Assembly (NCBI GenBank): GCA_000827325.1
Contig: KN832885.1
Location: 682,001 to 746,000, forward strand
From: Oidiodendron maius Zn
Lineage: Eukaryota > Ascomycota > Leotiomycetes > Myxotrichaceae
Direction of reading: 5' to 3'
Length of the DNA stretch: 64,000 nt
Part shown: piece by piece, positions 14,192-37,986 of the stretch
Position numbering within the stretch: the stretch's first letter is position 1
Layout of the letters: each line of letters starts with the position of its first letter
Program-made: the position numbers and the translations under genes
The notes under the pieces: generated by a model
Told to the model about the DNA's origin: nothing
Seen by the model: the letters and a program-made list of their open reading frames with translations, nothing else
The model's database searches: none

Positions 14192-15143
14192 ATGCCATTC
14201 CTCACTCCGGAATCCGTCGTCCTCGTCACCGCCAGCTCGGCGGGCCTGGGTGCAGCAACAGCCCGTGCCTTTGCTGCCAAAGGCGTTAATGTGGTCGTAA
14301 ATTATCTAAATAGTCGGGACAAAGCAGACAGCCTGGTGCAAGAACTCTCGTCACTGGATCCGCGCCCTCGAAATGATCCTCAATCAGCTGAGAGTACTGC
14401 ACTGGCGACACCGAGATTTATCGCCATACAAGCCGATCTATCCAAGAAATCGGAGATAAGCCGACTAGTGGCAGAGACACTGTCGCAGATGGGGAGGCTC
14501 GACGCCGTGGTCTCAAACCAGGGATGGACCAGAATGAGAGATTTCTTCAATTTGGATGAGAACGTTGACGAGAGCGACTGGGATAAGTGTTTCAATGTGA
14601 ATGTCAAGTCACACTTGTTTCTGTTCCACGCCGCCAGGGAGCACCTCGACAAGGTTCGCGGTGCCTTTGTTTCCGTTGCATCTCTGGCGGGCGTCAAGCC
14701 GAGTGGGAGCTCCGTGGTACGTCCGTTAGTCCCACCTCCATCTCGTATTCTGACATGCATACTAGGCGTATTCAGTGACAAAGGCCGCTCAGATTCATCT
14801 AATTAAATCCCTCGCACTTACATGCGGTCCGATCCGTGTAAACTCCGTGTCCCCCGGCATCTTGCTTACGGTCTGTTTGCTCTTAAATCTGCGGATTAAC
14901 GTAATTAACTGTTTGTGTAGGAATGGGGTGCACAATTTCCGCCGGAGAGACTTAATGCCGCGACAGAAAAGAGCCCGTTGAAGAATCTTGCCGCAGTTGA
15001 GGTAACAGTTCTATCCAAATTGGCAGAACATGTCAAAATTAATCGTTGAGGCATAGGACGTTGCTCAGCAGATCCTCTGCCTCGTGGACTGCACGTCCAT
15101 GACAGGTATGAATGCGGTCATTGATGCGGGTCTGTCAATATAA
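14192..15143 (+). CDS. Short-chain dehydrogenase/reductase
   Basis: Four exons (14192..14716, 14766..14870, 14921..15001, 15057..15143) give 265 residues. The Rossmann cofactor motif is TASSAGLGAATA near the N-terminus (classical TGxxxGxG with Ala for the first Gly). SNQG replaces the usual NNAG. The catalytic Ser lies in SVASLAGVK, and Tyr/Lys in YSVTK, which is restored only after the first intron. RVNSVSPGIL and a C-terminal GMNAVIDAGLSI complete the classical SDR pattern. It probably uses NAD(P)H to interconvert an alcohol and a ketone. It sits at the left edge of the enzyme cluster running to 38 kb and may belong to it, but its membership is not certain. Confidence 0.9.
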
Positions 15144-16682
15144 TAAGATTAACCAATCCACGGATATCATCGTAGCGTGGCAAAGTCACAGAAGCACCCT
15201 GCTGTGTTCAATTGATCGGCGTGTCTCACATCTCATATATGAACACGGACTTCGAAGGTCACATGGGCAACTAAGTACAATTTCTGAATAAGAACGATAT
15301 CTAGAGTGATGGATGTTTCATTTAATCTAAATATATTGCAGTTTAGCCCATCTTAAGTGAACGACTTTTAAGAGAGTATCGTGAAAAAAGATCATGCTTG
15401 GAGACTTTACAAGCTCGTTCTATCCCACTATTAACGCAATCTATATTAATAATTGGTTAACATGCCTCTGCCTGTAAAGCGCGTCTTTTACTTGATTACT
15501 TTGCGTCCAGTGCTACCCGCCGCGGGTATTTGCAGGTGGTTGAAGGATTCTAAGTAGAAAGTTTTCTCGAAGACTTCCTAAACCGTATATTGTTTGTTTC
15601 TACGCCATTATACATGCACTTCGCCATATTAAGTGCAGATGAAACGGCTGGAGCCTCCATATTGTAAAGAGGGATATAATTAGGGCTAAATTTTGCATAT
15701 AATACAATAATCGAACACTGAACACATGACCCGAGCGGATGATAAATCAGATATTAGAATATTTGTATTGCAATTGGGATTTAAATTGAATTGCTGCTCC
15801 CCGAAATAAGGAACAGGGGACGAAATAACACTTTCTTATCAGTGTAAAGCTAAGAATCAAGTTCTTCCGACTCCTTCTCAACACGGAAATGGGGAGTCGG
15901 CAAATCGACCAGAGCACTATTCGGCTGGTCTGATGGCTTTGGATAGGAGATAGTAATTCTTCTCGGGAGCTCGGAGGTGGCGGTTGCGAAGCCTGTCCTA
16001 GATGTAGGACCGAGAAATCCTGGCATGAAGCCCCGCATTTACCAGTCTCCCGGCACTATGGAGTCTTAGTATTGTATGTTGGATAAAGATACCGTGCGGT
16101 AGGAAAGAACCCTTTTTGATTATCTGACAGATACAAGAATGAGATTAGGTGAACGTGAGTGATATTTATAATATTACTTTCACCAGTCCATGGGCATTCT
16201 CTTCCCTTGGTGTTGGCAAAATCGTTTTGTTTTAATGACCGCTGTAATGATCCTACTTCCCGCGATTCCAAATGAAAGTTTAGAAACCATGAACGGAGGG
16301 TTTCGCGTATGGAATTTAGCAATTGGAGATGAGATCTCTAAATAAGCGCCAAATTTAAGTGTCTCGTACTACCTGGCAAGTATACGGGCGAGATATGTCA
16401 CCAGTTCTGCTGTTGGTTCTACCATAGAGAGTAACACTCCCGGACACTCGGCATAATGTGCGATGGCACCGAGCCCCGAGATCGCGGGGCGGGATGGTAA
16501 TTCCCACAACTTGTAAGTCAAATGCGGATTTCTTCCTTACCCCTAGACTAGTTTAATTATTTATACTTTATTTGCCTTACCTATTTTAAACTTGCACCAT
16601 ATTAACTGCCTATCAACATTAAGGTATATTGGCACATCGATTATTATATTTCTTCGCTTGCCCAGTTTGCTCACTGTCTGCA
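15144..16682. other. Long AT-rich intergenic region
   Basis: About 1.5 kb without a supportable gene. Small minus-strand frames at 15850..16038 and 16056..16322 have no domain. It probably holds the 3' flank of the SDR and the promoter of the MFS gene. Confidence 0.45.
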
Positions 16683-18491
16683 ATGGCAGTTATCGAGACA
16701 GAGAAACCTAGCCTCGTTGGTCACGACAATATCTCTGCGGACGTCAAAACCGCTGAGAAAAATGTGACGGCAATCCATGTTGAGGGAGATGCTGCTCTAC
16801 ATAGAATGCGGTATTTGCATATCGACGAGGAGTTGCAGAAGCGTGTCGTGCGCAAGTTAGACTGGAATATTATGCCCATCGTCCTTGGGCTCTGTATGTC
16901 GTGAATTCGATCCCAGTTTCCGCGCCCCTCAGCATGTCAGATGCATCTAACATACGATACAGATCTCTGCTCCGTCTTAGATCGCGGGAACATTGGTAAT
17001 GCACAGATCGCTGGCATGAGTGTTAGTTTGCGAATGAGTGACGATCAGTATCAATGGCTCTTGACCGTTTTTTATATCCCATATATCATATTCGAGCTCG
17101 GAGCCCTTATGGTACGTGTTATAAAGGTTTAGAGAACTTAGTCATGTCCTCATTATCCAATCTTTTAGTGGATGATCTTACCGCCACATATCTGGGCCTT
17201 TGGTACCGTTCTTACCTGGTAAATGCTGATCTTCTTGTCATCGAGTTATATCTGATAATATATAAGGGGAATTGCGGCAACCCTTCAAGCTTCTGCATTC
17301 AACTGGAGTGGTATGATGGCCGCTAGATTCTTCATGGCCGCTGCGGAGGCTTGCTATGGACCTAGTATTCCATACCTTCTGTCCTTCTTCTATATGCGCC
17401 GAGAACTTGGCTTCCGTTGTGGTATTTTCTTGTCTGCGGCACCCTTGGCAAATTGCTTTGCGGGTTGGTCTGGAGTTGCTTGGGTGATTTGCGGTATCAG
17501 CTAATTGGCTATAGGAGCACTTGCATACGGAATTACCTCTGGCCATCCAACTTTCAGCAGCTGGAGAGTGCTGTTTTTAGTTGAGGGGTTGCCTACAATT
17601 TGTATGGCTTTTGTCGCTCTAGTCTTCTTGCCCGACTCTCCGGATAAGGCTCGATATTTGACAGAAGCAGAGAAAGATATTGCTAAAGCACGAGCCATAC
17701 GACAGGTCGGAATTGAGGGCGCGGACCGTATCGGCGGCCTTTCATTTGAGGATATTGTGCCGGCTCTTCTAGATATTAAGAATTGGATTACGGCAGTAAG
17801 TCATGCTTTCTATAAGCAGAATGTAGATTTACTGATTTGTTTTGCAATGCAGCTTATGTATTTCTCGGTCAACGTCTCTTTCGCCTCACTCCCAGTATTC
17901 CTACCGACGATCCTCAAAGGCATGGGATTTAGTGACATAAACGCACAAGGACTCAGCGCCCCTCCCTATTTCCTAGCGTTCATAATTTCCCTCGCATCCA
18001 CGTACATTGCTGATCGGGCTGGTCAACGTGGCATCGTCATCATTGTGACTTCACTTACAGGGGCAATTGGCTACACAATTCTGGCTACAGTTAAGGGCGT
18101 TGCTCCTCGATACTTTGCCGTGTTCCTCGCTGCAGCTGGAATGTTTCCAGCTATCTTCAATATTGCTCCCTGGGTCATAAACAACCAAGGAAGCGATACC
18201 AAACGTGGGATTGGTATTGTCCTGCTACAGATGTTCGGATGCTGTGGTCCGCTTCTTGGTACCAGGCTCTTTCCCGCAAGTGAGGGAGTATATTATGTGA
18301 AAGGAATGGCTGTATGCGCTGCTTTCATGTATCTCTCTACTATTCTCGCCTTTGTCTTAAGGTGCTATCTTGCCTGGGAGAACAAGAAGGCCGACGAACG
18401 TGAAGTAGCAATCATACCCGCGCTGGATGTCGAAAAGATTACTAATGTGGCAATCGAGAACGATGGAGTTGGTTTCCGCAATGTGCTGTAA
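16683..18491 (+). CDS. MFS transporter, anion:cation symporter (Dal5/Tna1-like) type
   Basis: Six exons (16683..16893, 16963..17111, 17169..17218, 17267..17463, 17515..17795, 17853..18491) give 508 residues. The joins reconstruct the family landmarks: RKLDWNIMPIVLGL then YLCSVLDRGNIGNA at helix 1 and its loop; FYIPYIIFELGALM; RFFMAAAEACYGPSIPYLL; FAGALAYGI; and the LFLVEGLPTI segment with a PDSPDKARYL loop. Twelve hydrophobic helices are discernible. ACS-family proteins import organic anions such as allantoate, nicotinate, pantothenate or aromatic acids across the plasma membrane. At the head of the cluster it is a reasonable candidate importer of the cluster's substrate (inference). The 51-nt intron inside FAG|ALAYG contains an in-frame stop, so splicing there is required. 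Confidence 0.92.
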
Positions 18492-19400: not shown

Positions 19401-20843
19401 ATGGCCCCGAAATTCCTGAAATCGAAGGCGTCTGCAACAGAGAGTAATTCTACTGCAAGTAAAGTCCCTGATATTGTCAGTAGTGTCATCGCCACCATCC
19501 GTTCTGGCGGGAATGCCGCGGTTCGCGAATATAGCGAGAAGTTCGACCGCTGGTCTCCAGAATCCTTTAAATTATCAGAAGAAGAGATCTCCAAAATAAT
19601 TTCGACTCTGCCAGAACAGACCGTTAAGGATATTAAGGAAGTCCAACACAATGTGCGCAGGTTTGCTGAAGCTCAGCGAAAGTCTCTCACGGATTTTGAG
19701 CTTGAGATTGAGCCTGGTGTTCATCTCGGGCAAAAGAATATACCAATTGCGGCTGTGGGAACGTAGGTTTCTCATTTAGTTTTCCTTGATATCTTGTAAT
19801 ATACACCGTTTTCTTACTTCCTGCTCTAGTTATATCCCAGGAGGTCGATATCCCCTCCTCGCTTCAGCGCACATGACAATCCTTACAGCGAAAGTCGCTG
19901 GCGTGAAAAAGGTAATAGCATGCACGCCTCCCATTGCGGGTGAAATCCCGGCAGGAACAGTGGCTGCTATGCACCTCGCTGGCGCTGATGAGATATATAT
20001 TCTTGGTGGGGTGCAGGCAATTGCCGCCATGGCAATCGGCACAGAGACTATTCCTAAGGTCGATTTCATTGCCGGGCCAGGAAATGCATTTGTAGCCGAA
20101 GCAAAGAGACAGTTCTTCGGGGAGGTTGGAATTGATCTATTTGCTGGACCAACCGAGATTCTTATAGTCGCTGATGAGTTTGCGGATCCATTCATGCTTG
20201 CAACAGACCTTCTCTCGCAGGCGGAACATGGGCCCGATACGCCTGCCGTGCTTATTACCACATCCGAAGATGTAGGGAACAAAACCATAGAATTAGTCGA
20301 CCGTCTCCTCGAGACATTATCTACTGCAGAGATTGCTAGTGTTTCATGGAAGAACTTTGGTGAAGTAATCGTTGTCGGCGACCTAAAAGAAGCGTATGAA
20401 CTAGCCGACGCGTATGCATTTGAGCATGTTCAAATTCTGACGAAGAATCCCCGAGAAGCCTTGGAAAACATGAATAACTACGGAGCTATATTTTTGGGTG
20501 ACAAGACTTGTGTGTCTTATGGCGACAAGGCAAGTCGACTTTTCATTTCAAATATTTAGAGGCGTTTTTGCTGTGAAGCTAACAAATTGATAAGGTGATT
20601 GGCACGAATCACGTCTTACCAACAAAGAAAGCGGCGAGATATACCGGAGGCCTCTGGGTAGGAAAGTATCTTCGAACAGTCACCTACCAGGAGGTCACCT
20701 CTGCTGAGGCCTCTGGTCATTTGGGACGCCTGTGTGGAAGGTCTGCGAGAGCAGAAAACTTTGAAGGCCATGCTCGCTCTGGAGATCTCAGAGCGAACTA
20801 TAATCTAGGAGATGAATTTGATTGGATTACAAAAGGCAAATAA
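19401..20843 (+). CDS. Stand-alone histidinol-dehydrogenase-family enzyme
   Basis: Three exons (19401..19762, 19830..20529, 20595..20843) give 436 residues; an in-frame ATG at 19371 would add ten. The second intron begins GC (AAG|GCAAGT) and ends AAG. The join restores [15 protein letters not shown], a family signature. Residues that bind zinc or act in catalysis in bacterial HisD are recognisable: Gln and His in LSQAEHG, the Glu-His pair in AFEHVQIL, the Asp of YGDK, and a late His in FEGHARSG. Fungal histidine synthesis normally uses a large multifunctional His4 protein, so this monofunctional copy is more likely a paralogue oxidising another amino- or hydroxy-alcohol in two NAD-dependent steps. 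It lies inside the catabolic cluster and shares its likely role. The exact substrate is unknown. Confidence 0.88.
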
Positions 20844-21024: not shown

Positions 21025-21794
21025 CTAAAATTGAACATCCTCGCCTTCAACCCAAGCTTTCGCCTGTAAATACAAGGCGTCATGCATCTCACCGTTTCTA
21101 TTCTTGTCCCTGATATGTCCGGGCATATCTAACTTCACCTTCACTCCCATTGTCTCCTCCTGGCAATATGCCAAGTATCTGTACCCCGTTGGATATGCTT
21201 TCAACTTTTCATCATCCAAATGAGGTACCTTTCTCGGGTCCACAGGAATTAATTTATCCTTCTCATACCAATGCCTTATGCAGTTCGCGCCCCACCTTTC
21301 CGTCTCAGGATCCTTTGACCAGAAGTAGCAAAACCGGCAGTCCGCCTCGGCGTCAACCTCACATCCATCAATCACGAATCTTTGCGTGATGGTCGCTTTC
21401 ATCTTAGTTACAGCTCGAGTAGCAGCAGCATTAATATCCGTCGTCAAGCCATGGGTCCTATGAAGCACGAAAGCCCCTCTATCCATCCCTCTTTGTGAAG
21501 CGGAAATGAAATCCAGGTACGGCGTCTTTCCAGTCCAGGTAGTGAACATATATGCGCCCGGATGGAAAACTGACTTGAGATTTGCCCATTCCCCTGCATC
21601 GCTATGTGATTTTCCGTTTCAGAGAGCTCTTTGCTCTTAGTCGGAAGAAATAATACTCACCGATAACAAGGCCATCCTTCAGCCAATTCCCGAATCTTGT
21701 ATCTCTCAATCGCGAGGTTGTTAGGACCGTTATTGCTTATGGCATTTTCAGGTCGGAATCCCTCGGGGAGACCGTGGAGATCTCTCATTATCAT
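21025..21794 (-). CDS. SnoaL/NTF2-like domain protein
   Basis: Two exons, 21661..21794 and 21025..21601 (intron GTGAGT...CATAG), give 236 residues. The N-terminal helix ([42 protein letters not shown]) followed by strands matches SnoaL-like proteins of fungal clusters (RYxIxDLxxxWxxxRDxxxWxxLxxxFHPDA). Conserved polar residues of the pocket such as HRTHG and CRFCYF are visible. Members act as small cyclases, hydroxylases or dehydratases, or have no known activity. It lies between the histidinol-dehydrogenase-like gene (convergent) and the FAD monooxygenase (same strand), which suggests it acts on an intermediate of the same pathway. Function is inferred only from fold and context. Confidence 0.78.
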
Positions 21795-22094: not shown

Positions 22095-23817
22095 CTAAAT
22101 AAATGGTTTTGACTTGAGAGCGATGTCCACTTCTTCATGCGCGTCATATCCAAACAGCCATGACTGAACGACGGGACAAACCCTGTTGAATGAATTGTTT
22201 AATTTAGGGATGAAACTAAATAGGTATGTAAAGTAAACGATTTCAACATACCAACAAAGAGCAAATTTCTCTTTAACTTCAAGCCTGTGGTCGGAATATC
22301 TCTCCAGGAGCTCGTCTCGTTGTATTTGATCAGGGCCATCTCGCATTTGGTATAGACTTCTCTATTCGAATATCAGCGATCCGACTCTTACTCTTGATGC
22401 AGGATGAAGGAATGATGTTCGTACTATTTTTAGGGACTCTCGGGCAATTTCTTCCCCACGTGGCTTACGAATTGACTGATACAGTCGTAGCGCCTGGGGA
22501 AGTTGCGACATGCAAGTAACCTTGCCAAGCAGAAGACCAATGACTGTGCCATCCTCTATGGATGAATTTGCACCCTGGGCAAGATATGGTATCATTGAGT
22601 GGCAAGCATCGCCCCTGTTCAAGTCAACTTTCCTATGTCCACCACAAATTGGCACGGTATGCTCACATTAAAGCAAAATTTCCCTTTTCGTTAATCCATG
22701 TCTCCATTTCTGGCCCTATGTATATATGATAAGCACAATAATTCCTTATACGCGTAACTGCATTATGAGTATACGAACGGTACATCAGTCGCCATTTGTC
22801 GACGTGTGTAACAAGGTCCAAGTACTGCGACAGTCTATACTATCAATCAGATCACAAATTCCATACGGTGGGACTCAAACTAACATTGGATCCCAAGTAG
22901 AGAATAGCTGTCTCATTTCCTCAACTGACCCTGGCTGCTTGGAGACATCGGGCGGAAGGTCGTCGGGCACCATGAGAACAATATTGATCATCGTCCCATT
23001 CCGCACTGAGTATGAGACAACATGACTATCGGGCCCAAACCAAATGTTCAATGCTGGTTTCGTTACCCGGTCTCTTAATTCACCGGCGGGGATATCAGTC
23101 GCCTTCAACGTGATGCGATAAGCAATATCTCCTGTTGGGCTTGGCTTGTCCTGATATCCCAACAGGACTTCCCTACATCTTGACCATAAACCATCAGCAC
23201 CGATAATGAGATCTCCCTCAAACACATCGCCCGATGAAGAGATCACTCTTGCATCGTCCATTGCGACGTCAACGATCTTGCAGCCGAATTTAAACTTTAC
23301 ACCTAGGTCCTTGGCACGGTTGAGTAGTGCATTTTGAAGATCAACTCGGTGGATATTGACAAATGCGGAGCCGTATTTTTTCTCGATATATTGCCCATAG
23401 TCATGCTCTCTGAACAAGATTTTACCGTCTGAATAACGTCGAATGTTTAGCGCGTCTGGTTTTGCAATGGATTTCCACAAGTTTTCAGACAACCCCCATC
23501 TCGCCAGCAACCTGGAAGAGTTTGGTGTTATCTGAAGTCCTGCGCCAACCTAGGAAAGATTAGCACTACTATGTAGGCTGCAGGATAATATAAGAGCATG
23601 ATTTAATATTTAATTGTTTTATATGCGCATTCTGTGTACGAACCTCTCCAAGTTCTTTAGCTGATTCTAAGATCAAAACAGAATGACCGGACAAAGCGGA
23701 TTGGATGCCTGCACCTAATCCACTAAGACCAGCACCAACAATAATGACTCTCAGCGAAGGCAAATCAGCCCTGTAACCACTGTCTCTGTTACCGCGTCCG
23801 TTTACAGCCATATTCAA
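22095..23817 (-). CDS. FAD-dependent monooxygenase, salicylate-hydroxylase-like
   Basis: Seven exons (23644..23817, 22881..23549, 22779..22824, 22667..22715, 22392..22614, 22252..22361, 22095..22182) give 452 residues. Class-A flavin monooxygenase motifs are in order: GAGLSGLG (about 28-35) for the ADP moiety of FAD; the R-x-D-L pattern in HRVDLQNALL; IGADGLWS (DG motif); and GDACHSMIPYLAQGANSSIEDG (about 313-334), which is restored only by splicing. The nearest types are salicylate and 6-hydroxynicotinate hydroxylases, which use NAD(P)H and O2 to hydroxylate, often with decarboxylation, an aromatic acid. The small fifth-exon donor (C|GTTCGT) is weaker than the rest. The last intron (22183..22251) is 69 nt and has no in-frame stop, so retention would add residues rather than truncate. 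Confidence 0.87.
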
Positions 23818-24349: not shown

Positions 24350-24904
24350 GTGTTTGATCCTGTCAAATCCATCAGTATTTAAGTCAAATATATGAGAACT
24401 GTTGTAGATCATAACTTACACACCACACTTCGTAGAGTTTGATTCTTAAGCCAGAAATCGTCCATTCTATAACAATCCTTGCAGTAAAACTGACTTCGGC
24501 CTCCTTCCCACTCCCAGCTACGGCCACAAGTCTTCCAATTAACATCAAATCTTGCCCTTCAGCATCGCTTGCGTACACCTTGATAACCTGGTGGCGTCGA
24601 CTTTTAATACTCTCCCAAGCACGCTCCCTTGACTTTGAGATGGCTATACGTTGATTTTTAGTCTTTTCTCTTACCTTTAGTATATAAAAAGTCCCTGAAT
24701 TATAGAGCACGTACCTTCAAATCCGATTGATTTGCCTGTTGCTGCAGCCATGACGCCAAACTCCGTGAAGATTTCTCCTGCCAATTTGTTCCCAGAATTT
24801 GGATCTGGCAGATCAACAATCGCGAAAAATTTAGCAATTAAGCCTTTCACATCATCAGATATGACTATAAAGGGCCAACTTGTGTTCTTCAAAGCAGTAT
24901 CCAT
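24350..24904 (-). CDS. Small SnoaL-like protein
   Basis: Exon 1 is 24715..24904 and exon 2 starts at 24643 (intron GTACGT...TATAG). Translation reads MDTALKNTSWPFIVISDDVK, then AISKSRERAWESIKSRRHQVIKVY, then AVAGSGKEAEVSFTARIVIEW and IKLYEVW. The alternating strand pattern and length (about 146-155 residues) fit an NTF2/SnoaL-like dimeric cup fold. The 3' end is uncertain. The frame runs to 24384 without a further intron (149 residues), but a GTGTAAGT donor after EVW and a TTTGACAG acceptor offer an alternative ending near 24350. It is the second SnoaL-like gene of the cluster, and the two flank the monooxygenase. Function is unknown. Confidence 0.65.
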
Positions 24905-26967: not shown

Positions 26968-27567
26968 ATGTCACCCTCAGCAACAGAGGTTAGTATTGCA
27001 AGTAAGGGCCAGGATAAAGTCCTCAGTCCTAGTTCCCTAGCCCATGTCGTCCTCCGTACCGCCAGATATCAGGAACTCGTCGACTTTTGGACTATGTTTC
27101 TCGGTGCGACTATAACACACAAAGATGATACTCTTGCTTTTCTGCGTTATGATGAAGAGCACCACCGAATTGCCATCATTGCAGTTCCCGGTACTTTGCC
27201 ACGTGCAGGTACAACAGCAGGACTTCACCACATTGCTTTCTCATATAGCACATTGGCAGACTTGCTTCAAGCATATAGACAACGCAAAGCATTGGGTGTG
27301 ATGCCTAAATGGTCTGTGAACCATGGACCGACGACAAGTATTTACTACGAGGATCCGGATGGGAATCTGGTCGAGACACAAGTTGATAACTTCGAAACGT
27401 CGGAGGAGGCAAATGACTTTATGTCGGGGCCATTATTTGCAGAAAATCCAGTAGGAACAGATTTTAATCCAGAAGAGTTGTATCAGACAATGCAGAGCGG
27501 TGTTGCTGATGGCGAATTGAAGAAACGAGTTGAGATTGGTCCTCGATCAATGCCCGCTGGACTCTGA
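26968..27567 (+). CDS. VOC-superfamily extradiol-dioxygenase-like protein
   Basis: Single exon, 199 residues. The vicinal-oxygen-chelate fold is seen as LAHVVLRT (His26), a beta-alpha repeat, GLHHIAFSY (His88) and YYEDPDGNLVETQ (Glu136), giving the 2-His-1-Glu metal set of type-I extradiol dioxygenases and glyoxalases. The phrase HGPTTSIYYEDPDGN is typical of biphenyl-2,3-diol dioxygenase-like fungal proteins. At 199 residues it is a single-module form, smaller than bacterial BphC (about 290). Placed next to the FAH gene and monooxygenase, aromatic ring cleavage is the simplest hypothesis; an isomerase or glyoxalase role remains possible. Confidence 0.85.
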   Translation: MSPSATEVSIASKGQDKVLSPSSLAHVVLRTARYQELVDFWTMFLGATITHKDDTLAFLRYDEEHHRIAIIAVPGTLPRAGTTAGLHHIAFSYSTLADLLQAYRQRKALGVMPKWSVNHGPTTSIYYEDPDGNLVETQVDNFETSEEANDFMSGPLFAENPVGTDFNPEELYQTMQSGVADGELKKRVEIGPRSMPAGL

Positions 27568-28197: not shown

Positions 28198-30887
28198 TCA
28201 AGGGTATGATACCCCACCAAGACTAGATATCTCAGCTGTTCCCATGGCAGAAAAGACATTCCATCCTTCCATATCAAAGTCAAGGGCACTCAATGTGTCA
28301 AGCTATTATATGTAATAATCAGGGCTCCTGCACCAGGTGAAAAAAGGGCCATGACTCACATCATTCCAGCTCTCTGAATTTGGACGCGCTAGTTCGGCCC
28401 ATGAGTTGTCCGATGCTGCTCCTTCAGTTGCAGGTCGCTCCTTTGCTTTTTTAACAGTTGCACGTGCCATCGCAGCTACCTCTCGTGTGAAAGGGAAAGC
28501 AAGTTCATTTGAAGTCATGAACTCTAAGTGCCCAAAATGCCCTGCCGCAATATCAAGAAGTGCAACATCTGATTGTGCTGCTTGAGATGACGGTCTGATC
28601 AAGATCGAAACAAAAAGGTTAATGAGCCCGACCATAGGATAATAAAAAGTAAGCCTATATAGAAGTTAGAGAAGAGTATAACTTTAAAAGGGATGAGAAG
28701 CTGATTGTACGGTGCAGGAGAGGCAACATTAATTTCGATATGCCTTGTGGTAAGAATTATATTTCGCGCGGCCTGGGCCACAGTTTCTGTGCTGACAGAT
28801 ACTTGGTCTCGGAAAACTTTGTTAGCCTCAGTGCCGAATATAACTGAAATCCATGGGTAGGTGAAGATTGTGTGAACTGCCATCAGGCTGCCATAGTAGG
28901 CGAAATGCAGGTATAGTACACAGTCACGGTTTCTGGAGCCTGATACTATTAGAAATGCTTTCGAGTTTCCGATTCGCAATGTGACAGGTAGTTCTTCTCG
29001 CCATTGCTGTAGTTGTTGGTCCAAAATTCGTACGGTTTCGATCACATCCTCCGTGCTGCGCCGAAAGGCACTAACGGAACCAAGTTTCTTGGAGATCTGT
29101 GAGGCAATCTGCGCGTGTTTAATGGCATGTGTGAATATTTCAATATCGATCGTGCTGCCAGACACAATTGTAGTGGGTATTTGGCAGCTAATGTCGTCGT
29201 CATCAATAGCCTACGTTGATAATAAGTAGGTGAGAGGGTGACAAGAAGGAGTAACTCACCGAAGGACGTCCCGAACGATTAATAATAGCCTTTTCGCAAC
29301 AGTATATTGCCCAAAAAAGCCAATTACGATGTATTATTTCCGACTCAGGAAGATTCCACAACCTTGCCGGTTGCCGATGAAGCCCTTTGGACTGCGCAAG
29401 TCTAGCAGCGCATGAACAAATCATGTACTCCAACGCAGGGCTTCCCAATCCTTCTGCATAAAAGGCCTATAAATGAGTTAATATTTGGTTAGAAAATATA
29501 TCATGCAAACTCTTACCATGAGGGCCAATGCTTGGACTGCAGAGAGGCCTGTGGGGGTATATAGAAGCTCTGTGTGAACCGATAAAGCATTCTCGAAATA
29601 TTGCCATGCTTGTGATTGTGCCTCACCGAAGGTAATCGATGTATTTTTTGACAGGATGACGCGACATCCCGATGCATATACTGTATTTCGTAGTGCGAAC
29701 CAGGAAACATCATCTTCGAAATCAGCATCCTGGGCAAACTGCGACTTGAGCCGCGCCTCGAATGTAGGACGGTGGACAACGCCAAACGCAGCGTAGTGGC
29801 ATTCTTCAAAGTATGCTTCATTTGGCACAGTATTGTCAATATTTTTAAGCTAATGTGAGCAGTTTCTTACCTTGGCTATATAACCAGGCGGTCTCCAAAT
29901 CAAGTTCCGGTGCTTTATGTCGACTCATAGAACCCTGGAGTTTCAATCGTTTAGTCCATCCTAATGTCAACCCCTTTGCGCTTTCTTGGAAACCCGATGT
30001 TTCTGTTCTCTCGCATACCCATTTTATGCCCGGATTTGAACAAATGGATAACCAAGATCCAGGTCCTAGTTGTGGCTTTAGCGAACAGAAATGAATCATA
30101 TTGCAGAGGATACTGACCGTGGTGCTCCCAGTTTACCTACTAACAACATTAGCTGGAAACATATAGGCACGGGGCGCATTACATTATCTGGAGAAAGAAT
30201 ACTCTCTTCCTTATCAATTGGCGCCCTCGACGTTGCTGGAGTCAAAGGATCTTCGCTGTGGCAAATGATATTCGGCAGTGGTCCTACTGACGGCCTTGTG
30301 CCTGTTGATGGCGGCGTACACAAAATCGACCGAGGGGTCTCAATGCTCGTCACGGGAAGATTTCTGTCAGTATCCTGAAGGCTGATCTTATCGCTGTGGC
30401 TATGGGCTATGGAAACGCCGTCTGGAGATCTATAGTTGGTATGTTCATGCACGTTGTATTGACCAACCGAATGGCTCGGCCTATGGTAATCTGGCGAAGG
30501 AGGTGCTTGCATGTGCTGAAACGAGTTTGGGTCGTGGAACTGTCCACTGTGATCATGATTCTTTGTTGTTTGGAGGAGCGCTTCCATTTGTTCCAATCTG
30601 CGCTCTAACATAGGATTGATACTGCTGCTTCGCTTCCCTTTCCTCCTTTGAGGCGGGGGATAGACACATTCCTTCCCATGATCCTATAGAATAATATAAG
30701 CAGCTGGTCAGTGCGGCATGTATTTACTCTACCCACAATACAGTTCTTGCATCGAATTCCGCCAGAGCCTCATAAAGGTTAGCAAGTTACACTGCACAGG
30801 ATATTGGCCTTTACATTTAACTTTCCGTGCACGGCAGCAGCTGCACGCATTCGCGCACTTCGGCGGGTGAATCGGCTGATAGCTCAT
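28198..30887 (-). CDS. Zn2Cys6 transcription factor with fungal_trans domain
   Basis: Nine exons are proposed: 30798..30887, about 30737..30751, 30137..30683, 29871..30065, 29517..29815, 29260..29466, 28711..29210, 28360..28654 and 28198..28302, giving about 750 residues. The zinc cluster begins CANACSCCRARKVKCKGQYP in exon 1 and continues CKNCI in a tiny exon and DHGKECVY in exon 3, giving C-x2-C-x6-C...C-x2-C-x6-C. The middle domain has GPGSWLSICSNPGIKWV, AYFEECHYAAFGVVHRPTF and ALEYMICSCAARLAQSKGLHR, typical of the fungal_trans dimerisation and effector region. All junctions from exon 3 on keep frame. The boundary before CKNC lacks an AG at the expected place (see findings). It is probably the nuclear pathway-specific regulator of the surrounding cluster (inference). 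Confidence 0.82.
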
Positions 30888-31625
30888 GGCGAGAGATACC
30901 TAAGATCGTCAGATATAAGTACTACCACAATGTCAGAATCTACCGAAGGATCAAAAGCAAGTCGGCTAGATTTCTCACTCACTCGAGATGTCATCCAAGA
31001 CTGCATGGTGTAGGGTATCAGCGATCTCTAGCCGAGAAGCGGGGTCCTTGTTCAGGGTGACACAATGCTCTAGGCAGCCGCCGTGCAGTCCAGCTACAGC
31101 CTTTACGTGGCTATCCTTATCGAGCAAGAGCAATCACTTTCGTCCATTGAAATCGAGTATAAAATATGTTACAATGTAAATAACGGTGTGAAATGACGAC
31201 CGCGCATTTACTTGTCCCAATGATGATATCAGTCATCTATTGTCAGCCCCTTATGGTTACTCCAGGGCTTTACGTTACACTCAGGTGTAATCCCCTGCGT
31301 GTACTAATTTCAGTACGGGTTGTTGTCGCAAGATCCTACGAGAATCGGACAGTGGTGAGTCCGAAGGCCGAGTCTTGTCACACCAGGAATCCCTTCTGCC
31401 GTGTACGGACGCTAGGCACCTTCCCCTGGTTGAACAAGAACTTCCTCTGGATATAAAAGAGAAGGCAGAATATTATAATCATGTCTCACACTAGTTGGAT
31501 AAGAGAGGGTACAAAATATTGTCCTTTAGAGGGACAGCAGAATATCGGACTCATCACTTGTTCCCTTCAAAAATATCACTCTATGAATTTTTTCCAGTAA
31601 CAATAAAGATTACCAATTGTCCAAA
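30888..31625. other. Divergent promoter region, regulator (-) and MFS (+)
   Basis: No supported gene. A TCGG-N12-CCGA arrangement lies around 31346..31365, of unknown meaning. Confidence 0.4.
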
Positions 31626-33346
31626 ATGTTAAGCAATAAATCGCAAGCGTCCGATCTTAAGAAGGTAGAAGACTATCTTTTCACTGCCGGGGAGCCGGAA
31701 TCACGACACAGAGAGGATGTTATGGTCCTGGACATTAGTGATGCCAAAGCAGATGGTCCAACCCATCTTAAGCTTGCTTGCAACGGCCACGTAGCAGTTT
31801 CTCAACCATTCTGCAACGAATATATACTAAAAGTTTATTAGACCGTGCTGGTTCCCCAACCATCGGACGATCCCAATGATCCCTTGAACTGGTCTGGCAC
31901 GAAGAAAGGTCTAATTCTTGGTACCATCTCAGTTGCCGCTTTCTTAGCTGAATTTCAGTGCACAACTGGCAATCCATGCATTCTACTCCAAGGTGCCGAG
32001 TGGGGAATCTCTCCTGACCATGTTAACTACGCAAATAACCTGAACGTTCTCATGGTGTAAGACTCATCACTGAATACATTATTGTTTTATTACTAACGTA
32101 TTAAACAGTGGTGTTGGTGGCGTTTTTTGGATCCCGTTGATATCTGTTTGCGGTCGAGCGCCGGTTCTATTGTACGCTTGTCTTGCTGGCACCCTTTTCA
32201 CACTAGGATGTATATTGGCTCCCTCTTTCTCCGTGTTCTATAGTCTGCGAACAATCCAGGCATTTTTCCTTACTGCTCTCCAGACAATTGGGCTTGCTTT
32301 CATTCAAGACATGTTCTTCTTCCATGAACATGCTAAGAAGATAGGGATCTGGACATCATGCTTCATCATATCTCCTTATTTTGGACCCCTACTCGCAAAT
32401 TTCGTGTTATGGAGCACAAATTCATGGAGAGCGGCATATTGGATGGTATTTGGACTAGGCTGTCTCGTCCTGGGCCTCGTCTTACTCTTCGTCGATGAGC
32501 CCTGGTATAGACGGGACATTGCGCCCGAAAATCAACCCACTAAGGGGAGCCGACTTTCTAGAGTTCTCGGACTATGGCAGGTCAAACATCACGCTGGCTA
32601 TTTCTTAGGTCCAGGTAAAGCTTATCGACGGCTGCTATATGTTTTGTTGAAGCCCATAATGCTGCCAATTATGATATACTAGTAAGTGTCCGCATCCTGA
32701 CGAAGAATATCATCTTGATAATGATAGCTGCTTCACGTTCATGTGGGCTGTGGGAATTAACCAGAGTTCTTCAATTCTTTTTGCCACCCCAGTTGCCGCA
32801 GGCGGGTATGGCTTCACTGATCGTTCACTGGGATTCATATACTTTACGCCTGTTGTTGCTATCATCATTGGTGAAGCATTTGGCCATTTTTTCAATGATT
32901 ACCTCTTCGCCCGCTATATTCGAATCCATAGCGGCATCTTCCAACCAGAGGCTCGACTGCCGTCAAATTACATAGCAGCCGTATTCATGATCCCAGGCAT
33001 CGTTCTAGTGGGTCAGGCACTGCACAAGCATCTACACTATGTCGCGATTATTATGGGATGGGGCATGTTTGTCTTCGGTTGTATGGTTGCCTCAGTGGCT
33101 ATAACGGCGTATGCCTTAGATTCATATCCTACTGGCTCTGGAGAAGTGTCTGGATTAATCAACTTCTCGCGAATTATCGGTGGATTTGCAGTGCCTTATT
33201 TTCAACAACCCTGGGGCCTTACTGATGGTTACAATATCACCTTTGGAGTTCAAGCTGCTATCATCGGGTTTGCACTTTGGATCCTTGTCTGCATCCACGT
33301 ATTTGGTGCACGGCTGAGGGCGCGGGGTGGGACGCTGGACAGTTAA
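31626..33346 (+). CDS. MFS transporter, DHA-type
   Basis: Four exons (31626..31790, 31842..32056, 32109..32681, 32728..33346) give 523 residues. It has a hydrophilic N-terminus, then PQPSDDPNDPLNWSGTKK, the standard lead-in to helix 1 of fungal drug:H+ antiporter-type MFS proteins. Further landmarks are LNVLMVGVGGVFWIPL, the loop-2/3 segment CGRAPVLLY, FIQDMFFFHEHAKKIG, YFGPLLANFV and SWRAAYWMV. The second half includes a charged loop and ALDSYPTGSGEVSGLINFSRIIGGF. It has about twelve helices and should lie in the plasma membrane. It could export a toxic intermediate or import a substrate; direction is not decidable from sequence. It is adjacent to and divergent from the regulator. Confidence 0.9.
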
Positions 33347-33791: not shown

Positions 33792-35360
33792 ATGCTGTCA
33801 TTACGATACCAGTCACGCTGCGGTCCACTATTGCGGCTCCCGCTGACACCAACTCTACGACACAAAATATTCGTGCGATGGGCATCTGTTACAGCCTCAG
33901 AAGATGCACCGTCAGTTCCGTGAGTAGTATAAACGTTAAACCATAAAAGACAATCATTTGATGACTAAAAATTTAGACGCTTTCCTGGGGCAGTCAAAAG
34001 TCCTCTCGTAACATCCATGGATTTCCTGGAACCATTAACGCTGCCAAGAATACCAACATACCGAGTTATGAGCGATGACGGCTCTCTGGAGGACCCAAAT
34101 CGAGCTGAACCAGATGTTACAAATGAGCAGGTACTTACATGGTACAAAAATATGTTAACAGGTGGGATCAAAAGCCAATGGATGACAATTTATAGGTAAC
34201 TGACTTCATGTAGTGAATATATTAGACTCCATCATGTTCGAGGCCCAGAGACAAGGTCGTTTGAGTTTCTACATGGTGTGTACATTATATATGCGTAAAT
34301 CCTTCCTAAGCTGATGTGACTGAATAGGTATCTGCTGGAGAAGAAGGCATTACCGTTGGGTCGGCCGCGGCTTTAGAACGCGACGACATTATTACTTGCC
34401 AATATCGAGAGACTGGAGTCTACCAACAACGAGGCTTTACGCTCAAAGATTTTATGAGTCAATTATTCTCAAATCGACATGATCCTGGTAAGGGACGGAA
34501 TATGCCAGTTCACTACAGTGGAAGGGAGAAAGTTGGAGCAGTAAGTCCTCTGAGGTTATTTAAAGAATGTCATATTAATGTGCGTTCCCTAGCATGCCGT
34601 AGCTTCCACACTCGGAACACAGATACCTCATGCCACCGGTGTTGGATATGCTCTGAAAATGCATGCCAAGGAGAATCCCACGGATCCTCCACGAGTTGCA
34701 GCCTGCTATTTCGGAGAGGGAGCAGCAAGTGAAGGAGATTTCCATGGTGCTCTTAATGTAGCCGCCACAAGAGATTGTCCCGTGATATTCATGTGCCGTA
34801 ATAATGGGTTCGCAATATCAACTCCGACGACAGAGCAATATCGTGGCGATGGCATCGCTAGTCGGAGCATTGGATATGGCATTGATAGTCTCCGAGTCGA
34901 TGGCACTGATATCTTCGCCGTTTATGAAGCTACCAGAGAAGCTCGTCGAAGAGCATTGGAAGGAGGCGGTCGTCCGATTCTCCTTGAATTCATGAGCTAC
35001 CGCGTTCAGCACCATAGTACGAGTGATGATAGTTTTGCCTACCGAACTCGGAGTGAAGTGGAAAATTGGAAGACTCGATATAATCCCATTACTCGGCTCA
35101 GAAAGTGGCTAGAGAAGAAGAATCTGTGGGACGAAATAATGGAAAAGAACACCAGAAATGAGATACGCAGAGCAATGCTACAGGAACTCACAGCAGCCGA
35201 AAAGGAGAAGAAGGCCCCTCTGAAGTCGATTTTCACAGATGTTTATGCTGAACTTACAGAGGAAGCGGAATCTCAGAGGCAGGAGCTCAGGAGAATTATG
35301 TTGAAATATCCTGAGGAGTATGATACGGATAATTACGAGGGTGGCATAAAAGGCCTGTAA
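33792..35360 (+). CDS. 2-oxoacid dehydrogenase E1 component, alpha subunit (branched-chain type, mitochondrial)
   Basis: Five exons (33792..33919, 33977..34161, 34214..34275, 34328..34540, 34593..35360) give 451 residues. The N-terminus is Arg-rich and free of acidic residues for 30 residues, as in mitochondrial presequences. Landmarks of branched-chain E1-alpha are YRVMSDDGSL, QGRLSFYMVSAGEEG, QYRETGVYQQRGF, and the thiamine-diphosphate/Mg motif GEGAASEGD (237-245) with RNN (265-267). The phosphorylation-loop region YRVQHHSTSDDS is also intact. It decarboxylates 2-oxo acids with the beta subunit and passes the acyl group to a lipoyl domain. It is convergent with the beta gene, only 171 bases apart, and lies next to a lipoyl protein gene, so these are either the housekeeping BCKDH genes or cluster-dedicated paralogues. 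Confidence 0.94.
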
Positions 35361-35531: not shown

Positions 35532-36830
35532 CTAATACTCTAGAACTTCTCGTATGGCATCATATACCCCTAAGAGTAAAAGTCAGGATCATTTATGAGA
35601 AGTAGCTACAAAGATAATGAGACTAAGATGACTCACTTGCAACATCTGGCAATATAAATTGTTCGTATGCCAACCCAGTATGGGTGGTCCACCCTGCAAT
35701 CCTTTTTATTGGAGCATTCAAATGCAAGAACGCACCTTCCTGGATAGTGGCAGCTACTTCGGCTCCAACACCAAAGTTAACCATGCTCTCGTGCACAATT
35801 ATAGCACGTCCCGTCCGAGACACGCTCTCGAGGACAGTTTGTCTATCCCACGGATATATTGTTCGTAAATCAATGAGTTCGATATTAGCACCCGTGATGT
35901 CTTTCTCTGCAGCTTCAATCGCCGCAGAGCAAGTATACAGAGGACGACCGTACGATATAATAGTTAGATCCGATCCAGGTTTCAGAATCTCAGCTTTGCT
36001 TAGCGGAAGCGTATAAAATTCATTGGGTACTTCCTCAACCGCAGCGCGGTAAAGAATTTTCGGCTCCATGAAAATGACCGGATCCTCCGATTCCAGAATT
36101 GCTGATAGGAGAAGACCCTTAGCCTGAGTAGGAGAGCGAGGCATGACAACTCGGAATCCCGGTACGTGGCAAAATAACGCTTCTGGAGATTGGGTATGAT
36201 ACCTTGTCCATGGATTAGCATGCGGGAGTTGAGTACCAAAGACGAGACATACAAAGCACCATGGCCAACACCACCACATGGCATCCTAATAACGAGACCA
36301 CCTATATTTCCACCTGTTGCGCCTTCACGATACCGAAACTTTGAGGCCTCATTCACAATCTGATCAAAAGCGGGGAAGACATAGTCGGCAAATTGGATTT
36401 CAACCACAGGCTTCATTCCCTCTGCGGCCGCCCCGATGGCCGTGCCCACAAAGCCCTGTTCCGTCAGAGGCGTATTAAAGACTCTGTCCTCACCAAACTC
36501 TGACTGGAGACCCATCGTACACCTGAATACCCCACCAAATGCCACATCTTCCCCAAAGCAGAGCACTTTGCTCGAGGTGCCCAGAGCTGTTCGCAATGCC
36601 GAATTCACTGCTTGGTAGAGATTTAGGCGTTGAGAAGGACCATTCTGGGGTAATCCAGGAGTGGTACCAAGCGTATCAGCGGTATGGTGGAGAAGGGGTG
36701 TCTTGCTGAAATCTATTGGAACATTCAGTCGCGGCCTCGCAATCGCAGATGCACCAGTAGAAAAGGCACGCAAGGATGCGACCTTGAGGGTGGCTTTAAC
36801 TGAGGTTCGAAGAAGCATCCTGAAGAACAA
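35532..36830 (-). CDS. 2-oxoacid dehydrogenase E1 component, beta subunit (branched-chain type, mitochondrial)
   Basis: Three exons (36253..36830, 35637..36202, 35532..35569) give 393 residues. The N-terminal [20 protein letters not shown] is a plausible mitochondrial presequence. Transketolase-type motifs are [70 protein letters not shown] (restored by splicing), [10 protein letters not shown] and a C-terminal domain ending [12 protein letters not shown]. Length and motifs match full branched-chain E1-beta. It forms an alpha2-beta2 heterotetramer with the neighbouring alpha product in the mitochondrial matrix. It is divergent from the lipoyl-domain gene downstream. Confidence 0.94.
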
Positions 36831-36896
36831 TGAGCATCGTTCCGCACACTCCCATTCTCATATCACGAGCTTTGAGCTTTCACCGTTCAACGATGT

Positions 36897-37186
36897 CGTC
36901 ACGTAATCCTGTGCCTGCCCCTCTGATTACCTATTCCATCATCCCCCACAGTCCCTCGATATTCGAGATCCAGACTTGCCATCTCGGGTATTTGCGGCGT
37001 AACGAATCTGAGGCTTGTGCCCGTCTCGCTACAGACTTCCTGCTCTCGGCGATCGACACACAGCCTCTAGTTGTCTCGCTTATTCATGATGTTCTTCGCC
37101 GACGGCCCGAAGTTGTCTCCGAGCAAATGGGATGTTCTGCCTGCCTCCGAGCTGTACCATTAGGCATTCAAGGGAGTATTCCCTAG
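36897..37186 (+). CDS. Possible small unrecognised ORF
   Basis: An open frame with ATG at 36893 encodes about 97 residues (starting MSSRNPVPAPLITYSII) with coding-like composition but no recognised domain. It starts 60 bases upstream of, and divergent from, the E1-beta start codon, within what should be its promoter. It could be a gene fragment or chance. The rest of 36831..37422 shows nothing. Confidence 0.2.
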
Positions 37187-37422
37187 AGCACAATACCCTT
37201 GTTGAGGCTCTAGCTGCATTCATCCAACTAAAATGACAGAAGAATGTCTAGTCGTTCCTTCGTTCGACCGGCACTGGTGTCTAATACCGCCTGCTGAAAT
37301 CAGAGTGGTTCTTAGAGTGTATATTTGCAGACAGGGCTGCATGAGGCACCTTTCCCTGATACACATATCTAAATTTTACATCGTGTCAGAATAGCTGCTG
37401 GATTTTGAATAAAATACTTCAC

Positions 37423-37986
37423 ATGTGGTGCCGACTTTCTCGACGAATGCATTGGATCTCCACATCTTGGAGGTTGGGGCCTTCCCGAACGAAGCTCCGC
37501 TTCACAGCACCAAAATACCAACTCTCCCGCTATTTCCAATCATCGCCAATAGTGCATAGGGTAATTCCATATAACCTGGCAGATATTGGAGAAGGTAATG
37601 CAATACGCAAAATAATGGCAAAATAAATTCTTACGAAGGTGATGATTGCGCTAGGGATCACGGAGTGTCAAATTCTCAGTTGGTCGGTCAAACCTGGAGA
37701 CCGAGTCCGGCAATTTGACAAGATCTGCGAAGTACAGTCAGATAAGGCATCAGTTGAGGTAGGTGTATTGAATTGTTGCGCACTTCCTATTAAATCGATT
37801 GTACTGATTTCCAGGACCAGATCACCTCTCGGTTTGATGGGGTTATCAAAAAGCTCCATTACAAAATAGATGATATGGCGAAAGTTGGAAAGGTACCATT
37901 TTATATCTAAAAGGGATCCGCATATAATAGCTAATAATAAGTAGCCACTTGTTGATATCGATGTTGACGACAATCTCCAAAACTAA
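37423..37986 (+). CDS. Lipoyl-domain-only E2-like protein (branched-chain acyltransferase N-terminus)
   Basis: Four exons (37423..37594, 37655..37758, 37815..37892, 37945..37986) give 131 residues. The Arg-rich N-terminus is a plausible mitochondrial presequence, followed by [15 protein letters not shown] and a complete lipoyl domain: [15 protein letters not shown], the lipoylation site [10 protein letters not shown] (Lys), [12 protein letters not shown] and [13 protein letters not shown] stop follows within four residues. The peripheral-subunit-binding and acyltransferase domains of normal E2 (about 300 further residues) are absent. Just downstream (38050..38090) is a sequence repeated at 42.5 kb, so an insertion may have cut the gene. 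Alternatively it works as a free lipoyl carrier for the neighbouring E1 pair. An acidic QDGRDTAEQSPVQET-like stretch at about 38008..38052 could be a remnant of the E2 linker. Confidence 0.85.

Follow-up and report, generated by a model that had tools for sequence, protein, structure and literature searches.

We analysed a window of 64,000 nt from Oidiodendron maius Zn, a heathland root fungus (contig KN832885.1, positions 682,001-746,000). In order, it carries genes for an SDR, an MFS transporter, a HisD-type enzyme, a SnoaL-like protein, an FAD monooxygenase (FMO), an FAH-family hydrolase, a VOC protein, a regulator and a second MFS transporter, followed by E1-alpha, E1-beta and a lipoyl gene, the stop of which is exactly the end coordinate of the region (37986). 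The E1-alpha and E1-beta genes are intact and of branched-chain type, and they adjoin a putative catabolic block of aromatic-acid type. Spliced models of the named genes were built and then scanned against Pfam cut-offs; those of the FMO and the regulator were pieced together, with X between exons, and the first FAH exons and the ends of the SDR, HisD and first MFS models are approximate. The genes of the block are:

11903..13528, minus strand: secreted-type carboxylesterase (COesterase, Pfam E=5e-109; gene model), divergent from the SDR gene
14192..15143, plus strand: SDR in about four exons (adh_short_C2, 2e-41; inner exon borders and 3' end set by eye)
16683..18491, plus strand: MFS transporter 1 (MFS_1, 3e-27)
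19401..20843, plus strand: stand-alone histidinol-dehydrogenase-family enzyme (Histidinol_dh; last exon border approximate)
21025..21788, minus strand: SnoaL-like protein 1 (SnoaL_4, 27.4 bits against a cut-off of 24)
22400..23811, minus strand: FAD monooxygenase, 3-hydroxybenzoate 6-hydroxylase/salicylate hydroxylase-like (FAD_binding_3, 2e-24; several exons, 3' end approximate)
24420..24904, minus strand: small protein, earlier called SnoaL-like (gene model)
25215..26293, plus strand: FAH-family hydrolase (FAA_hydrolase, 6e-62; first exons approximate)
26968..27567, plus strand: single-domain VOC (catechol-2,3-dioxygenase-like) protein of 199 aa, single exon (Glyoxalase, PF00903)
28599..30899, minus strand: Zn2Cys6-type regulator with Fungal_trans (exons approximate)
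31722..33346, plus strand: MFS transporter 2 in four exons (MFS_1)

Matches above the Pfam cut-offs were obtained for SDR, MFS_1 (two genes), Histidinol_dh, SnoaL_4, FAD_binding_3, FAA_hydrolase and Glyoxalase/VOC, and also for Fungal_trans, E1_dh, Transket_pyr with Transketolase_C, and Biotin_lipoyl. The gene content named in a preliminary description of this DNA is confirmed by these matches, apart from the second of its two SnoaL-like genes, the small gene at 24420-24904, for which nothing in Pfam reached E<=0.01, and the regulator's Zn2Cys6 motif, which scored 16.8 bits against a cut-off of 21 in the rough model, beside a clear Fungal_trans domain. The carboxylesterase is possibly the left-hand member of the block. 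The best NCBIfam model for the pieced-together FMO was 3-hydroxybenzoate 6-monooxygenase (198 bits, below the cut-off of 459), and its score with the salicylate_mono model was 114 bits (cut-off 446); the VOC protein matches PF00903 and scored 34.8 bits with catechol_2_3, below the cut-off of 320. The HisD-type enzyme exceeded the cut-off of TIGR00069 (456 against 244 bits), and a separate HIS4-like gene, an 828-aa open frame with a HisD domain, lies at C12. Some bacterial relatives of the HisD-type enzyme occupy catabolic surroundings.

We compared the block with the best 80 of 498 bacterial HisD loci, which hold actinobacterial relatives 63-69% identical to the window enzyme. Among these 80, an FMO was present in 15, an FAH in 14 and a VOC in 9. 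All three occurred jointly in nine loci, every one from Streptomyces, and these are not nine independent cases. Locus L094 from the Actinobacteria, with the order FMO-ABM-FAH-VOC-HisD-SDR, contains the same kinds of enzyme as the O. maius block, several bacterial gene labels being our own reading of the sequence; it differs in having an amidohydrolase and a two-domain extradiol dioxygenase where O. maius has a single-domain VOC protein. In the best-matching bacterial operons the FMO and FAH are ~28% and ~37% identical to their fungal counterparts, the fungal VOC gave no tblastn match within the 80 loci, and MFS1 and both small proteins were matched in none of them. Within O. maius itself, an FAH gene lies within 10 kb at three of the five other VOC loci, and relatives of the small protein (24420-24904) are found near two other VOC genes. 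Since relatives of the HisD, FMO, SDR, MFS and carboxylesterase genes were not found at those five loci, only the VOC-FAH pair, in part with the small gene, recurs there.

In addition, promoters in the block have a sequence word in common, which was chosen after the fact:

14012..14025, plus strand: promoter word CACCGAGCCCCGAG before the SDR gene, with 14 identical nt at 16467-16480 before MFS1
25090-25099, minus strand: first 10 nt of CACCGAGCCCCGAG, in the stretch that separates the FAH gene from the small gene

The word CACCGAGCCC has 70 copies in 45.9 Mb, three of them in promoter regions of the block: those of SDR, MFS1 and the small gene/FAH pair. Against its significance, 1 of 20 shuffles also produced a 10-mer common to three promoters. 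With one mismatch allowed, there were four copies in the window against 2.2 expected, and 19 of 100 shuffles had as many, so there is no excess. The joint occurrence of FMO, FAH and VOC with HisD in Streptomyces, the recurrence of VOC with FAH and the common promoter word together support the earlier proposal that the block genes resemble one aromatic catabolic set.

To the right of the block lie the E1 genes:

33792..35360, plus strand: E1-alpha paralogue of branched-chain type, 451 aa (exons 33792-33919, 33977-34161, 34214-34275, 34328-34540, 34593-35360)
35623..36818, minus strand: E1-beta paralogue of branched-chain type, 381 aa (exons 36253-36818 and 35623-36202)
36819..37422: divergent region of 604 bp common to E1-beta and the lipoyl gene (from the gene models)

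The two genes encode a full-length E1_dh alpha chain and a full-length Transket_pyr/Transketolase_C beta chain, of branched-chain rather than PDH type. Among solved proteins, human BCKDH alpha (E=7e-122) and beta (E=6e-113) match best, the domain order is that of the mitochondrial BCKDH E1 (alpha2beta2), and the window E1-beta is 55% identical to the human chain. The N-terminus of E1-alpha is arginine-rich, with its first acidic residue at position 37, and by eye looks like a presequence. E1-beta is annotated as OIDMADRAFT_106209, with ends that differ from our model.

The preliminary description had asked whether another BCKDH set exists in the genome, and one was found, unclustered, with E1-alpha at C7:1107124, E1-beta at C7:1381634 and an E2 that we take to be C6:963547. 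The window E1 is 58% (alpha, tblastn) and 63-66% (beta) identical to these housekeeping copies; at 27-30% (alpha) and 37-38% (beta), the presumed PDH copies of O. maius are much less similar. By sequence, the window pair is a second, non-housekeeping copy. It is hardly credible that the window E1 genes serve as the housekeeping BCKDH genes, or that they form a set of pseudogenes in decay, a reading to which the truncation of the adjoining E2 would lend itself: it is contradicted by the separate housekeeping genes and by both E1 frames, which are intact with GT-AG introns. In an E1-beta from another source, the 381 aligned residues show 6 substitutions and no interruption, though its frame reads through the intron. 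An independent E1-alpha record at 100% identity is intron-free across three predicted introns, which suggests that E1-alpha transcripts are spliced.

An unrooted E1-alpha tree of 50 rows was built with 48 of 120 listed relatives out of 6898 matches. Its housekeeping clade, of 11 rows, has support 100/100 and does not include the window E1-alpha, the position of which inside the paralogue group is weakly supported in this tree. The relatives listed span many ascomycete orders, and we take them to belong to Leotiomycetes, Eurotiales, Chaetothyriales, Hypocreales, Dothideomycetes and lichen fungi. In Scytalidium lignicola the E1-alpha and E1-beta locus tags are consecutive (B7463_g7387/g7388), and no S. 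lignicola VOC was among the relatives listed in the VOC search. We then compared 38 paralogue rows, the window included, with the 11 housekeeping rows in human numbering. Residues Q112, Y113, R114, S162, L164, N222, R287, H291 and S292 are invariant throughout; of the 38 paralogue rows, 24 have D at E193, one has C at R220, and one is gapped at 192-195. The window E1-alpha keeps Q112, Y113, R114, S162, L164, G192-A195, R220, N222 and H291, which we take to be ThDP-binding and catalytic sites, and has F at Y224. Eleven sites separate paralogue from housekeeping rows, five of them beside invariant catalytic residues (F110T, T159A, I160V, S161A and Y224F, each in 31-38 of the 38 paralogue rows); the E1-beta comparison had one fungal housekeeping row only. 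On this evidence the window E1-alpha is a member of a second fungal branch of BCKDH E1, which differs from BCKDH in lying outside the housekeeping clade and in group-specific residues beside the active site, although it keeps the ThDP, catalytic and phosphorylation-loop His/Ser residues. The window genes further differ from BCKDH in being clustered and in an E2 reduced to its lipoyl domain.

This reduced gene and the element beyond it are as follows:

37423..37986, plus strand: truncated E2, 129 aa (exons 37423-37594, 37655-37758, 37821-37892, 37945-37986)
38056-38097 and 42509-42550: pair of 42-nt terminal inverted repeats, 93% identical, also present elsewhere in the genome

The product has a presequence-like start and one lipoyl domain, and is annotated as OIDMADRAFT_59208 (76 aa) with an identical C-terminus. 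The E3-binding and catalytic E2 domains are absent from it, and no remnant of them lies within the window; in a genome search, PF00198 E2 cores turned up at just three loci, all of them elsewhere. The dedicated E1/lipoyl module of the preliminary description falls short of a full dehydrogenase, the E2 being cut after its lipoyl domain, and with that domain alone the locus does not encode a complete 2-oxoacid dehydrogenase complex. The first inverted repeat starts about 70 bases past the lipoyl stop, and 38056..42550 is likely a DNA transposon. The small lipoyl protein is probably a relic of a truncated E2, and possibly a carrier. The window lacks a partner E2 core, and the three core loci are the number expected for PDH, OGDH and BCKDH; the E1 pair might accordingly act without any E2, as a non-oxidative thiamin-dependent decarboxylase. 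The precedent is LumK/LumL of the lumichrome operon, described in PMC12746152 as two thiamin-binding proteins that decarboxylate a heteroaromatic acid. We regard this as very unlikely for O. maius, where the alignment of each subunit with human BCKDH covers most of its length and the phosphorylation-loop H291/S292 are kept in 38 of 38 paralogue rows.

The preliminary description had also placed the E1 and lipoyl genes in the aromatic pathway, as one route from an imported aromatic acid to an acyl-CoA in which they act on the 2-oxo acid of the FAH step. The comparisons do not bear this out: E1-beta, the subunit used as query, was matched neither in the 80 bacterial HisD loci (the best of 498) nor at any of the five other O. 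maius VOC loci, the E1 and lipoyl promoters contain the promoter word only as a copy with one mismatch, at 33349, and the E2 lacks its core. Such a single pathway is possible, if rather unlikely; what supports it directly is that the genes adjoin in a single genome. The block and E1 genes are contiguous, non-housekeeping E1 paralogues lie together here, unlike the housekeeping genes, which are spread over C6 and C7, and the active-site changes are compatible with another substrate. PMC12746152 further describes an extradiol catechol dioxygenase beside the LumK/LumL pair, together with a putative fumarylacetoacetate hydrolase, a likeness by description only, in a bacterial operon that differs in its P450, Rieske dioxygenase and xanthine-oxidase-type steps. 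A xenobiotic-induced Fusarium verticillioides cluster, FVEG_09969-09978, has co-induced SnoaL-like, SDR and transketolase C-terminal-domain genes, and differs in also having an amidohydrolase, a P450 and an ABC transporter (PMC10512309). The salicylate-hydroxylase class in the Gluck-Thaler and Slot scheme of fungal degradative clusters (as cited in PMC10735191) likewise combines an FAD monooxygenase, transporters, a regulator and dehydrogenases; relative to it, O. maius has VOC and FAH ring-processing enzymes, a stand-alone HisD-type enzyme and the neighbouring E1 pair. That the E1 pair works independently of the block, either supplying secondary metabolism with branched or aromatic acyl-CoA or clearing toxic branched 2-oxo acids, would suit its scattered lineages, which are usual for accessory metabolism, but we think it improbable, no polyketide or peptide synthetase domain having been found among the 19 window proteins scanned.

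We therefore favour, with a probability of about 0.58, two adjoining functional units, a degradative cluster and an accessory ketoacid dehydrogenase. Unit A (~11.9-33.3 kb) would degrade an aromatic or phenolic acid under the Zn2Cys6 regulator: an MFS transporter would import the acid, the flavin monooxygenase would hydroxylate it, the VOC dioxygenase-like protein would open the ring, and the FAH-family enzyme would release 2-oxo acid and carboxylate fragments by C-C hydrolysis, with oxidation of an alcohol or aldehyde intermediate assigned to the HisD-type enzyme and the SDR. Unit B (33.8-36.8 kb) would be a thiamin-dependent E1 (alpha2beta2) of branched-chain type, accessory and mitochondrial, that belongs to an old family of fungal paralogues. 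The substrate that it decarboxylates is most likely a 2-oxo acid different from those of valine, leucine and isoleucine, or one used in addition to them, and the acyl group most likely goes to lipoyl arms on the housekeeping E2; the small lipoyl protein is most likely the remainder of a co-duplicated E2. With the units adjoining and B no less compact than A, they could still form one coregulated cluster.

BCKDH is usually regarded as a single housekeeping complex, and we found no description of a second branched-chain E1 of this type (alpha-B/beta-B) in filamentous ascomycetes. A more speculative and doubtful extension is that this second E1 is widespread among them, has a remodelled active site and oxidatively decarboxylates 2-oxo acids from ring-cleaved plant phenolics, and that the O. 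maius copy sits beside its own ring-opening cluster, with a free-standing mitochondrial lipoyl protein shuttling acyl groups to the housekeeping E2. If true, alpha-B/beta-B would be a 2-oxoacid dehydrogenase system without an E2 core of its own. The association of HisD with FMO, FAH and VOC in both Streptomyces and O. maius is a lead toward a catabolic pathway. An E1 group that retains its catalytic residues in changed surroundings implies that many soil, lichen and plant-associated fungi have a second 2-oxoacid dehydrogenase activity, for which the O. maius locus offers a defined candidate for testing.

Gene models for contig C16 682001-746000 (64 kb of a 45.9 Mb genome) of O. maius, an ericoid mycorrhizal ascomycete, were drawn up partly by hand and partly by means of a small splice-aware scorer of coding sequence, and the proteins of 19 genes were scanned against Pfam. 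The gene list of the preliminary description was upheld by the models and by Pfam, except on two points: Pfam recognised nothing in the second SnoaL-like gene, and the regulator, whose gene model is rough, has a Zn2Cys6 motif that stayed below threshold. The features are as follows.

11903-13528: secreted-type carboxylesterase, divergent to the SDR gene
14192-33346: aromatic block (SDR, MFS1, HisD-type enzyme, SnoaL-like protein, FMO, second small protein, FAH, VOC, regulator, MFS2)
33792-35360, plus strand: branched-chain-type E1-alpha
35623-36818, minus strand: branched-chain-type E1-beta
37423-37986, plus strand: lipoyl protein

The carboxylesterase may also be a member of the block. A larger second aromatic hydroxylase (Pfam FAD_binding_3 and Rng_hyd_C; 51848-53735, minus strand) lies approximately 14 kb past the lipoyl gene, with likely transposon and ankyrin-repeat sequence between the two.

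Both E1 genes are intact, encoding 451 residues in five exons (E1-alpha) and 381 residues in two exons (E1-beta), with GT-AG borders at all introns checked, and the human BCKDH subunits are their best solved relatives. For E1-alpha, one public record is identical to residues 74-451 of the spliced window protein and continuous over three introns, suggesting that it derives from spliced RNA or from a spliced gene model. For E1-beta there is a near-identical record whose frame continues across the intron, so that it is genomic or unspliced; the E1-beta record of O. maius Zn is OIDMADRAFT_106209. The preliminary description had proposed a search for another branched-chain set elsewhere in the genome, and one exists: E1-alpha at C7:1107124 (58% identity to the window copy by tblastn, a slight underestimate because the match runs across an intron), E1-beta at C7:1381634 (65-66% identity for the single exons and 63% for the alignment as a whole) and E2 at C6:963547, the last assigned by lipoyl-domain similarity. 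More distant E1 copies in the genome were taken as PDH. The two housekeeping E1 genes lie approximately 275 kb apart on C7, and tblastn detected no block gene within 10 kb around either of them. An additional Transket_pyr gene, at C1:6403598-6404207, was not matched by the window E1-beta in tblastn.

A search with the window E1-alpha gave 6898 matches (7994 best candidates scored), of which 120 were listed; 48 of these, together with the window and housekeeping copies, were placed in an unrooted maximum-likelihood tree of 50 rows. Eleven rows, including the O. maius housekeeping, Aspergillus, Penicillium and Onygenales copies, formed a housekeeping clade with 100/100 support, and the window E1-alpha and 38 other rows fell outside it. 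On the strength of this tree and the separate housekeeping copies, we rejected the reading that the window pair are the housekeeping genes. The nearest row to the window protein was from the lichen fungus Hypocenomyce (83% identity), in a weakly supported placement.

We then compared 38 paralogue rows, the window copy included, with the 11 housekeeping rows in human numbering, setting aside P0121, a record identical to the window E1-alpha over its length. Q112, Y113, R114, S162, L164, N222, R287, H291 and S292 were invariant in the E1-alpha rows, the exceptions elsewhere being R220 replaced by C in one row, E193 by D in 24, and a gap at 192-195 in one row. Eleven sites separated the two groups, and five of these lie beside the compared residues: F110T (36 T and 2 C among the 38 paralogue rows), T159A (36), I160V (37), S161A (38) and Y224F (31). 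At these five sites the paralogue state looks derived, judging from the alignment, because the human protein and most housekeeping rows agree there. For E1-beta, 24 of the 25 listed rows (all but an insect protein) were compared with the human protein and only one fungal housekeeping row, giving six group-separating sites in 21-24 of the 24 rows, among them Y64F, A93P, A95V and T131V. In Fusarium solani-melongenae the listed E1-alpha (LCI18_005040) and E1-beta (LCI18_004783) do not have neighbouring tags, which argues against a fixed E1-alpha/E1-beta gene pair if the two are partners.

The preliminary description had further supposed a dedicated E1/lipoyl module. A full dedicated 2-oxoacid dehydrogenase complex at the locus was rejected for want of an E2 core: tblastn with the 429-residue housekeeping E2 frame found no further E2 piece in the window, and a genome search placed PF00198 at only three loci, all outside it. 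The lipoyl gene itself has four exons and encodes 129 residues up to a stop at 37986, with an arginine-rich start, a first acidic residue at position 54, and then a full lipoyl domain carrying the DKA lysine motif and sharing 62% identity with that of the housekeeping E2. Its C-terminus is the same in the public O. maius Zn record OIDMADRAFT_59208, and the housekeeping E2 match likewise ends past ADIGEG, as if by an intron. A 42-nt terminal inverted repeat begins at 38056, 69 bases past the lipoyl stop, has a 93% identical partner at 42509-42550 with TA at both ends, and occurs at seven other places in the genome. Two of the repeat sites, on C21, lie approximately 270 bp apart in opposite orientation and are MITE-like. 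A transposon adjoining the break fits the loss of the 3' part of an E2 gene; beyond it, too, the window holds no E2 sequence. The simplest reading of the sequence is that the lipoyl gene is a relic, while a working carrier is possible. A search restricted to candidates of approximately 71-226 residues (435 matches, 120 listed, 12 sequences inspected) gave no support for a conserved stand-alone lipoyl partner, the one near-exact record among those listed being from O. maius itself. Three other inspected proteins, from other sources (P0004, P0007 and P0010; 125, 130 and 132 residues, 66-70% identity), likewise consist of a single lipoyl domain behind a presequence-like start and stop shortly past that domain. 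Their ends are either natural or arise where the frame of an ordinary E2 gene breaks off at an intron, so short lipoyl proteins may form a wider family.

The established chemistry of the families represented in the block points to hydroxylation, ring cleavage and C-C hydrolysis yielding a 2-oxo acid. Matches below cut-off were obtained with the NCBIfam models of 3-hydroxybenzoate 6-monooxygenase, salicylate monooxygenase, catechol 2,3-dioxygenase and HpaG. Of 498 bacterial loci, the 80 that match the HisD-type protein best share 63-69% identity with it and all carry actinobacterial titles. By blastp clustering and sequence reading, FMO was present at 15, FAH at 14, VOC at nine and a cupin gene at 15 of these 80 loci, with FMO, FAH and VOC together at nine, all Streptomyces. 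One locus (L094) has the order FMO-ABM-FAH-VOC-HisD-SDR; of its proteins, the FMO exceeds the cut-off of a family model and the VOC and FAH match NCBIfam models below cut-off. The actinobacterial HisD relatives, which recur beside a cupin gene and a LacI-type regulator, are an unassigned, probably catabolic family. With the window proteins as tblastn queries, FMO was matched at 15, FAH at 16 and SDR at 14 of the 80 loci; no locus was matched by VOC, E1-beta, MFS1 or either of the small proteins. A LacI-type regulator, labelled by eye, stands beside the HisD relative at 35 of the 80 loci (L030-L109).

Within O. maius there are at least six VOC genes, five of whose loci lie outside the window. 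Within approximately 10 kb, three of these five have FAH (C24:397500-417499, L130 and L131; C8, L134 and L135; C33, L132 and L133) and two a relative of the Pfam-less second small protein; HisD, FMO, SDR, MFS, the first SnoaL-like protein, carboxylesterase and E1-beta were found at none. VOC-FAH is thus a recurrent unit in this genome. In other fungi, VOC and E1-alpha records were compared by the length of the longest contig given for each: the value is equal for Dendryphion nanum, Cladophialophora psammophila and one further record and differs for Phialocephala, which, with six or more VOC genes in O. maius alone, counts neither for nor against linkage of the two genes.

The promoters were searched for shared words; of 20 shuffles, 1 also produced a 10-mer that three promoters share. 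The word so picked, CACCGAGCCC, has 70 genome copies (reversed control 86), three of them in block promoters, and the 13-mer CACCGAGCCCCGA has three (reversed control four), two of them in block promoters. With one mismatch allowed, the window total for CACCGAGCCC did not stand out (4, with 2.2 expected). No exact copy is present in the promoters of the E1 and lipoyl genes, and a one-mismatch copy lies at 33349. Zn2Cys6 CGG triplets showed no convincing enrichment, the best spacing occurring in 6 of 10 promoters with three matches in control regions.

That the E1 and lipoyl genes act with the aromatic block in one pathway from an imported aromatic acid to an acyl-CoA, as first proposed, is in our view unlikely. 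The genes are contiguous, a paralogue set is gathered at one locus and the active-site surroundings of E1 are altered; LumK/LumL (PMC12746152) provide a precedent, and a xenobiotic-induced Fusarium cluster holds a transketolase-domain gene (PMC10512309). However, E1-beta goes unmatched at both the bacterial HisD loci and the VOC paralogue loci, exact copies of the promoter word are confined to the block, and the E2 is truncated. The riboflavin/lumichrome operon was rejected as a counterpart, 'histidinol' being absent from the main text of PMC12746152. A literature search, in which subscription papers were covered incompletely so that absence is not proven, found no description of a second fungal E1 group or of a fungal cluster joining BCKDH E1 with aromatic ring-opening genes, and neither 'oxoisovalerate' nor 'branched' occurs in the main text of the paper on toluene and Cladophialophora immunda (PMC5595782). 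In the mechanism we propose, the block would carry out hydroxylation, then ring cleavage, then C-C hydrolysis giving a 2-oxo acid. The window E1 pair would need an E2, of which only housekeeping copies are in sight, and would decarboxylate a 2-oxo acid.
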